Positions 2,201-3,010 of a DNA stretch of 64,000 nt are shown piece by piece. This DNA is from an uncultured Cyclobacteriaceae bacterium (GTDB taxonomy: Bacteria > Bacteroidota > Bacteroidia > Cytophagales > Cyclobacteriaceae): assembly GCA_905479015.1 (NCBI GenBank), contig CAJQKV010000012.1:62001-126000 (forward strand), given 5' to 3'. Each line of letters begins with the position of its first letter. Positions within the stretch are counted from its first letter, which is position 1. The translations under genes were made by a program, and so were the position numbers. The notes under the pieces are model-generated. The model was given only the letters and a program-made list of their open reading frames with translations, made no database searches and was not told the origin of the DNA.

Positions 2201-2665
2201 TCAAGAAAAAGACAAATGCCTGTTCAGGCTTTCCTCCAAACTTATAAATGTTTCCGTACGTTCGATTCCTTCAACTTTTTGAATCTTATCATGTAAGACA
2301 TCTTTAAGGTGCCGGGTGTCCTTGCAATGTATTTTTATGAAAATATTGTAGTTACCTGTTGTATAGTGAACTTTCACGATCTCTGGAATTTCTTTTAAGT
2401 TATTCACTACGGAATCGTAAAGAGAACTTTTAAGTAGATAAATGCCCATAAAGCAGGTTACATCAAATCCCAATTTTGAGTAATCCATTTTAAGTGTTGT
2501 GCCAGTCACAATCCCCATCTCCTCTAGTTTTTTCATTCTAACGTGTACAGTACCCCCTGACACAAAGACTCTTTTTGCTACTTCTGTGTAGGGTATTTTG
2601 GCATCTTCCATCAAAATATTAAGTATTTTGAGATCTACGTTATCAATTTCGTAATTTTTACTCAT
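2201..2665 (-). CDS. Lrp/AsnC family transcriptional regulator
   Basis: This 154-residue protein is a typical Lrp/AsnC regulator. The N-terminal winged HTH (residues about 5-60) contains the family pattern DNVDLKILNILMEDAKIPYT and a VHVRMKKLEEMGIV recognition region. The C-terminal RAM ligand-binding domain (about 70-150) has the VKVHYTTGNYNIFIKI strand pattern. Members bind DNA as oligomers and sense amino acids or related metabolites. The ligand cannot be told from sequence. It stands alone between sufB (181 bp away) and the tRNA-like RNA, and shares the minus strand with sufB. No partner gene points to a specific target pathway. Confidence 0.93.
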   Translation of the reverse strand: MSKNYEIDNVDLKILNILMEDAKIPYTEVAKRVFVSGGTVHVRMKKLEEMGIVTGTTLKMDYSKLGFDVTCFMGIYLLKSSLYDSVVNNLKEIPEIVKVHYTTGNYNIFIKIHCKDTRHLKDVLHDKIQKVEGIERTETFISLEESLNRHLSFS

Positions 2666-2774: not shown

Positions 2775-2782
2775 TAATTTTG
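2775..2782 (+). promoter_or_regulatory. Putative -7 box of the tRNA-like RNA
   Basis: TAATTTTG matches TAnnTTTG exactly and lies 41 bp upstream of the first acceptor base of the tRNA-like RNA. That would give a short 5' leader to be removed by RNase P. No TTG -33 element is found at normal spacing; the nearest is about 56 bp upstream. The assignment therefore rests on the box and its position. Confidence 0.4.
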
Positions 2783-2823: not shown

Positions 2824-2945
2824 TGTAGGATGATGAAACTGGCAGACATGCCCTCCTATCTCGGGGGTGAAGGTTCGGGATAAAGCACATATGGAGCTCG
2901 TATGTGTCTAACCACTTCGTGGAGGTTCGATTCCTTCTCCTACAG
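2824..2945 (+). tRNA. Class II tRNA-like RNA, Leu-type D arm, AUC anticodon position, oversized variable arm
   Basis: The sequence folds as a full cloverleaf. The acceptor is 2824-2830 with 2938-2944 (7 bp, U1-A72). U8 is at 2831. The D stem is 2833-2835/2847-2849, with A14, GG (2841-2842) and A21 in the loop. The anticodon stem is 2851-2855/2863-2867 around loop CTATCTC. The T stem is 2921-2925/2933-2937 with loop TTCGATT. The discriminator is G2945 and no CCA is encoded, as for tRNA-Asp in this window. The D-arm region resembles bacterial tRNA-Leu. Oddities: positions 34-36 are AUC, position 37 is U, and the variable region (2868-2920) is about 53 nt. That region can fold as GAAGGTT (2869-2875) with 2910-2918, plus CACATA/TATGTG (2886-2891/2901-2906). 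It could be a non-decoding tRNA relative, a rare serine- or leucine-type isoacceptor, or a decayed gene. The folding is seen; the function is unknown. Confidence 0.75.
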
Positions 2946-2974
2946 CAATTTATTAAGTTAATGTTGTTTATTTG

Positions 2975-3010
2975 AAAGTCGTTTGTAGGGGTGCAAGCGG
3001 CTTTTTTTTT
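2975..3010 (+). terminator. Intrinsic terminator of the tRNA-like RNA
   Basis: There is a 13-bp hairpin, 2975-2987 paired with 2992-3004 (some G-U pairs), with a GGGG loop. A run of T follows directly, to 3010. It lies 30 nt after the tRNA-like RNA on the same strand. The minus-strand reading lacks a good U tract, so it is best read as the end of the plus-strand transcript. Confidence 0.85.

Follow-up and report, generated by a model that had tools for sequence, protein, structure and literature searches.

A conserved tRNA-like RNA family of Bacteroidia with predicted AspRS and GatCAB identity signals, a possible carrier for asparagine synthesis

What use does a bacterium make of an RNA that keeps the whole core of a tRNA but carries an anticodon loop and a variable arm that ill suit decoding? 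The question is raised by a 64,000-nucleotide (nt) stretch of DNA from an uncultured Cyclobacteriaceae bacterium of the class Bacteroidia (assembly GCA_905479015.1, contig CAJQKV010000012.1, positions 62,001 to 126,000 of the forward strand), hereafter the window, in which a 124-nt gene at 2824–2947 on the plus strand encodes an RNA that forms a complete cloverleaf. Here we describe the family to which this RNA belongs, the residues that it conserves and its co-occurrence with gatB, and we propose, giving the idea an even chance, that it derives from a tRNA, takes no part in decoding and serves as a dedicated carrier on which AspRS and GatCAB make asparagine. We found no earlier description of such an RNA, or of a dedicated asparagine carrier, in the titles and opening abstract lines of the openly licensed papers that our searches listed. 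The parts of the gene are as follows, with counts referring to the 77 copies of set A2 defined below.

2824–2947, plus strand: whole tRNA-like RNA gene, from U1 to C74 and one further base (sequence, family matches, covariation)
2824–2830, plus strand: 5′ strand of the acceptor stem, U1 G2 U3 A4 G5 G6 A7, partner 2938–2944 (U1–A72 and G2–C71 in 77/77 copies)
2833–2849, plus strand: D arm, a stem of 3 base pairs (bp; 2833–2835/2847–2849) and a Leu-like loop with GG at 18–19 (sequence, alignment)
2851–2867, plus strand: anticodon arm, loop 2856–2862 CUAUCUC (A34 U35 C36 U37 C38), against a family norm of G34 U35 C36 Y37 C38
2869–2918, plus strand: enlarged variable arm (alignments, covariation)
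2869–2872/2915–2918 and 2876–2878/2912–2914, plus strand: 4-bp and 3-bp stems of the variable arm
2879–2884/2908–2911 and 2885–2907, plus strand: conserved internal loop and variable hairpin of the variable arm
2921–2937, plus strand: T arm, a 5-bp stem and the loop TTCGATT (sequence, alignment)
2938–2946, plus strand: 3′ strand of the acceptor stem, then G73 (2945) and encoded C74 (2946) (G73 and C74 in 77/77 copies)

The core has U8, A14, A15–U48, GG18–19, G73 and the TTCGATT T loop, together with acceptor, D, anticodon and T stems of 7, 3, 5 and 5 bp, the D stem being Leu-like. A first, sequence-only reading of the window had described this intact core, and its observation of a tRNA-like RNA is confirmed, while its interpretation is partly supported. 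It was also right that the variable region, of about 50 nt, is enlarged; the single 7-bp stem that it drew there gives way to the two shorter stems, internal loop and hairpin listed above, with a C–A mismatch in the window copy at the outer pair of the 3-bp stem. C74 is encoded in the gene, as in 30/30 host tRNAs examined. ARAGORN called one tRNA in the window, at another place, and left this RNA uncalled, and Rfam, the tRNA model RF00005 included, gave no match at the RNA at gathering or relaxed thresholds. Folding of the single sequence was not significant (z = −1.42, with equally stable folds in 17/200 shuffles). We nevertheless conclude that the RNA is real and a member of a large conserved family missed by both programs, because it is conserved and its pairs covary, although single-sequence folding is not decisive.

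Matches to the window RNA were found by blastn in 41/59 genomes, host included, often as tandem copies. A pattern scan of named genomes returned at least 119 stretches; among the 80 matches listed were the Cytophagales Algoriphagus, Dyadobacter, Spirosoma, Cyclobacterium, Pontibacter, Fulvivirga and Flammeovirga, and also Saprospiraceae and Portibacter, Chitinophagales and some metagenome-assembled genomes labelled Flavobacteriales. A covariance model, built partly from pattern-found copies, matched at 69 bits or more in 69 of the class's 395 genomes, the host among them, and we call a genome RNA-positive when it has such a match (E below 1e-14, strict filters, 8 candidates scored per genome). 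The next matches listed below this threshold were 82–89 nt long and scored up to 60 bits; four sub-threshold matches from RNA-negative genomes were tRNA-Leu genes, and a re-scan of 23 RNA-negative genomes with laxer filters reached a top score of 55.9 bits. No match to the RNA appeared in phage and plasmid collections by sensitive blastn with E up to 0.01.

Two alignments were scored for covariation. Alignment A1, of 63 of 82 copies no longer than 136 nt, had 97.4% of its cells paired (89.0% in shuffles), two-sided changes in 17/30 pairs, the variable arm included, and 190 compensated cells where shuffles gave 49.6. Set A2 holds 77 model-found copies from 59 of the 69 RNA-positive genomes; its alignment was fitted to the model and leans towards it, and on that footing 96.1% of cells pair (83.6% shuffled), 22/30 pairs show two-sided changes and 313 cells are compensated, against 86.2. 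Set aside were 10/48 candidates (8 not this RNA, 2 cut off) and later 27 that were partial or out of register. Within the variable arm the internal loop, RAYAAA/CUAA (A1 columns 57–62 and 97–100), is nearly invariant, and the hairpin beyond it varies freely in size.

Model-found copies range from 78 to 197 nt. The shortest (L176 2037–2114, minus strand, genome G048) has the loop CUAUCUC and a short variable region, and ARAGORN calls it tRNA-Asp(atc). In Flammeovirga pacifica (L129 3687–4641) the RNA lies in a tandem array of 4.8 nearly identical 197-nt units. One copy (L180 2057–2204, plus strand, genome G176) has lost most of its anticodon loop and kept the rest of the RNA. Sequences at the tip of the variable arm, for example GAGCUCGU and GGGUUGACCAC, recur in different subgroups of loci.

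The residues held constant suggest which enzymes the RNA may meet. U1–A72, G2–C71, G73 and C74 are invariant in A2 (77/77), and acceptor pairs 4–7 vary with compensation. Because the pattern scan fixed parts of the anticodon loop, loop frequencies were taken solely from A2: U35 and C36 are each present in 76/76 copies, C38 in 75/77 and G34 in 70/76, so that the AUC anticodon first reported holds for the window copy and its genus and not for the family. According to passages of a 2023 review (PMC9976931), aspartate identity lies mainly in G73, G34, U35, C36 and C38, bacterial tRNA-Asp strictly conserves G1–C72 and G2–C71, and U1–A72 confers amidation of Asp-tRNA-Asn, which G1–C72 and U20a prevent in Asp-tRNA-Asp. 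The family thus carries the AspRS set G34 U35 C36 C38 G73 with G2–C71, from which the window copy departs at G34. Host tRNA-Asp has the loop CUGUCAC, G2–C71, U3–A70 and G73, but G1–C72; among 30 host tRNAs, GUC with C38, or G73 with G2–C71 and U3–A70, are combined in tRNA-Asp alone. In place of the G1–C72 of bacterial tRNA-Asp, all 77 copies have U1–A72, the pair expected of a GatCAB substrate, and C36 in 76/76 copies excludes the GUU anticodon of tRNA-Asn.

The RNA therefore looks like an Asp-identity tRNA in which the one pair that GatCAB needs has been changed. Judged from these residues, it is probably a substrate of AspRS and, with slightly less confidence, also one of GatCAB. Charging by SerRS or LeuRS irrespective of the anticodon, which the sequence-only reading had suggested, was set aside as the main role given the conserved loop G34-U35-C36-x-C38, which with G73 and G2–C71 makes up the AspRS set; the invariant U1–A72 points to GatCAB.

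The same reading had flagged the pyrimidine at position 37 and suspected a role outside decoding; the first point holds across the family, and the second is likely. Residue 37 is a pyrimidine in 68/77 copies and a purine in 9/77, and U33 is kept in 62/76 and lost in 14/76, whereas U33 with a purine at 37 was found in 30/30 host tRNAs examined. Because U33 is lost from these copies and residue 37 is so commonly a pyrimidine, a role in decoding appears unlikely; the elongator combination of U33 and purine 37 does not characterize the family.

The body of the RNA points to its ancestry. Scored by the covariance model, host tRNAs rank with Leu on top (49, 48 and 46 bits), followed by Tyr (43) and Ser (36–30), and the stretch CGTGGAGGTTCGATTCCT is common to the window RNA and host tRNA-Leu(GAG). 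Since the four sub-threshold hits are also tRNA-Leu genes, we infer from these likenesses that the RNA probably descends from a tRNA-Leu; the likeness noticed at the outset in the D arm extends to the body and suggests this ancestry. The RNA shares its D and T arms with class II tRNA-Leu and differs in its anticodon arm, acceptor end, G73 and far larger variable arm. With bacterial tRNA-Asp it shares GUC, C38, G73 and G2–C71, and differs in U1–A72, pyrimidine 37, the long variable arm and the Leu-like body.

A need for GatCAB in RNA-positive genomes was predicted from the residues before gatB was examined, and GatCAB presence was judged from gatB alone. gatB is present in 69/69 RNA-positive and 227/326 RNA-negative genomes (Fisher 3e-10, without correction for phylogeny). 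Both traits vary within five families, and in each of these all RNA-positive genomes have gatB (product of within-family chances 1.6e-6); family f60, for example, has three RNA-negative genomes lacking gatB and 11 RNA-positive genomes that all have it. We compiled by eye from listings which genomes are RNA-positive, which of them have gatB, and the seven genomes with both AsnB and gatB mentioned below.

AsnRS occurs in 377/395 genomes of the class and in 68/69 RNA-positive ones (G160 gave no match), and GlnRS in 30/46 RNA-positive genomes tested, host included; the seven RNA-negative genomes in the GlnRS test were selected knowingly as lacking gatB. Where both GlnRS and AsnRS are present, GatCAB is not needed for charging tRNA-Gln or tRNA-Asn. 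tRNA-Asn, located by a pattern based on its consensus, has G1–C72 in 8/27 RNA-positive genomes with a readable tRNA-Asn, and by the published rule such a tRNA-Asn would be no GatCAB substrate. Four genomes (G199, G258, G397 and G416) combine G1–C72 in tRNA-Asn with GlnRS, while their RNA retains U1–A72. The host itself has AsnRS, and its genome gave no match to AsnA or AsnB. True AsnB, defined by model NF006949, which tells it apart from paralogues of the eps type, is found in 0/69 RNA-positive and 49/326 RNA-negative genomes.

On the mechanism that we propose, AspRS would load the RNA with aspartate through U35, C36, C38, usually G34, G73 and G2–C71, and GatCAB, which refuses Asp-tRNA-Asp for its G1–C72, would accept the Asp-RNA for its U1–A72 and convert it to Asn-RNA. 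The product would be kept off the ribosome by the dispensable U33, the usual pyrimidine 37 and the oversized variable arm; on the ribosome, its GUC anticodon would place asparagine at aspartate codons, a harm that might explain the lost decoding features. Asparagine would then be freed in a putative release step and used by AsnRS, and in many lineages the adjoining AsnC-type regulator may control the RNA gene. That asparagine supply is the RNA's main purpose we regard as about evenly balanced. Somewhat short of that, we tentatively suggest that it acts as a reusable RNA coenzyme in primary metabolism: descended from a tRNA-Leu, equipped with AspRS and GatCAB signals and with its decoding signals eroded, it would make free asparagine where AsnRS is present and AsnA and AsnB are often both missing. 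If so, a tRNA would have been turned into a metabolic carrier that works off the ribosome, which would explain both why many of these bacteria retain GatCAB despite GlnRS and AsnRS and how they could produce asparagine without a synthetase; RNA-dependent amino-acid synthesis would become testable separately from translation, and a structured RNA family would be added beyond what ARAGORN and Rfam detect.

Among the closest known systems is the tRNA-dependent route in which AspRS and GatCAB make asparagine on tRNA-Asn, described for Bdellovibrio, D. radiodurans and T. thermophilus in passages of PMC4206432. It relies on the same two enzymes predicted here and on U1–A72, and according to that text also occurs in bacteria that have AsnRS and GlnRS and lack AsnA and AsnB; there, however, the carrier is the decoding tRNA-Asn itself and a non-discriminating AspRS is needed, whereas the RNA described here is a separate molecule that has the identity residues for Asp and is poorly equipped for decoding. 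tRNA-Sec and allo-tRNAs share the long variable arm but, in the part of PMC7609411 that describes them, have longer acceptor and anticodon stems, against 7-bp acceptor, 5-bp T and 5-bp anticodon stems here. tRNA-Other, a pseudo-tRNA that occurs in Bacillus cereus and in certain further Bacilli, is likewise tRNA-like with a role outside translation and is, on the account given in sections of PMC3399842, poorly lysylated in vitro; we liken it to the RNA in these general terms.

Several observations weigh against an asparagine carrier. At position 34, where G is one of the five strong AspRS determinants, the window copy has A, as is typical of its genus, and seven loci (L176, L177, L178, L180, L189, L251 and L255) deviate from G34-U35-C36-x-C38. 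tRNA-Asn has U1–A72 in 19/27 RNA-positive genomes, so GatCAB might serve tRNA-Asn there, given a non-discriminating AspRS. The AsnB contrast vanishes among genomes with gatB (0/69 against 7/227, p = 0.21), and we dropped AsnB loss as independent support after this conditioning. AsnB tracks the absence of gatB across the class (7/296 with gatB, 42/99 without), which suggests that an RNA-dependent route to asparagine is widespread there even in genomes that lack this RNA. Lacking both synthetases is not specific to RNA-positive genomes, since 75/77 tested RNA-negative genomes without AsnB are also without AsnA; these 75 must rely on tRNA-Asn, uptake or something else. AsnA is present in 4/69 RNA-positive genomes (G365, G048, G244 and G397), and one member of the host's order (G442, family f11) has gatB, gives no match to AsnA or AsnB and is RNA-negative even with lax filters. 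The AsnC score of the regulator beside the window RNA, 172 bits, falls under the model cut-off of 227.

Among other explanations the one that survives best, though we think it unlikely, is that the RNA, charged and perhaps amidated, signals through its charged state how the cell stands for aspartate, asparagine or nitrogen, the variable-arm loop being read by a partner, with no bulk supply of asparagine. The conserved internal loop and the divergent AsnC-like neighbour would suit such a sensor, and the same identity residues would apply; no target or partner was found, and tandem copies suit a bulk role at least equally. Improbable, in our estimate, is a donor that hands asparagine or aspartate on to a precursor, whether lipid, peptide or cell-wall: the RNA is non-decoding and chargeable-looking, and passages of PMC3399842 offer a precedent in non-translational pseudo-tRNAs, but the neighbour clusters listed contain no recurrent transferase gene, transferase families not having been searched genome-wide. 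We hold it just as improbable that the RNA is an uncharged decoy or scaffold for AspRS or GatCAB, which might by its binding hold a transamidosome together or tune AspRS. The same residues would serve binding and gatB accompanies the RNA in every case, but invariant G73 and C74 suggest a tRNA-like 3′ maturation that a decoy would not need. Hardly probable is an unrelated role, such as antisense regulation through the anticodon loop, in which case coincidence or shared phylogeny would account for the link to gatB and for the residues that suit AspRS and GatCAB; the gatB association is incompletely corrected for phylogeny, but it was foretold by the residue pattern. Very improbable, finally, is an odd but genuine elongator tRNA for Asp or Asn that still decodes, for which the full core, the commonly kept U33 and the GUC triplet of most copies speak, and against which stand pyrimidine 37, the losses of U33, the size of the variable region and the host's own tRNA-Asp and tRNA-Asn.

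Three further features flank the carrier candidate in the window:

2775–2782, plus strand: promoter-like element TANNTTTG, starting 49 nt upstream of the RNA (−49; recurring upstream motif)
2976–3010, plus strand: terminator-like hairpin with a T run (sequence and family-wide signals)
2201–2665, minus strand: Lrp/AsnC-family regulator, nearest AsnC, divergent from the RNA (profile scores, family-wide neighbour count)

The TANNTTTG motif, which we take to be tied to Bacteroidota promoters, starts between −60 and −28 in 80/179 distinct upstream regions, against a mean of 4.9 and a maximum of 12 in shuffles, the range having been picked after inspection of those regions. Terminator-like signals lie 3′ of 42/60 sampled copies and 2/60 shuffled ones. 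With a promoter-like element upstream and a terminator-like hairpin downstream, the RNA looks like its own transcription unit, and given these signals, its conservation and its covarying pairs, it is not the decayed tRNA that had been offered as the dull alternative. In 192 upstream regions A stands at −4 in 85% and at −2 in 84%, and G is nearly missing from −3 to −1; this A-rich, G-poor segment is possibly an RNase P leader signal.

According to parts of PMC4482635, AsnC is an activator of asnA in E. coli, an effect that asparagine abolishes. The window regulator scores highest with the AsnC model, ahead of LrpA (85 bits) and Lrp (59). Among clusters whose upstream sequence spans 800 nt or more, taken from blastn and pattern loci, a Lrp/AsnC-family gene lies divergently upstream of the RNA in 64/120 (median distance 147 bp), and by tblastn such a gene lies upstream in 14/20 model-found loci of other families. 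sufB often comes next after the regulator, and plain synteny is for that reason a possible explanation of the association. The E. coli genes asnC and asnA are neighbours; an AsnC gene adjoining asnA was sought by tblastn in seven asnA loci of about 4.5–6.5 kb in these bacteria, four of the seven genomes being RNA-positive, and the arrangement was rejected (0/7). In 12/120 clusters a gene for an S4-domain protein, presumably resembling an RluD-type pseudouridine synthase, lies upstream of the RNA on the same strand.
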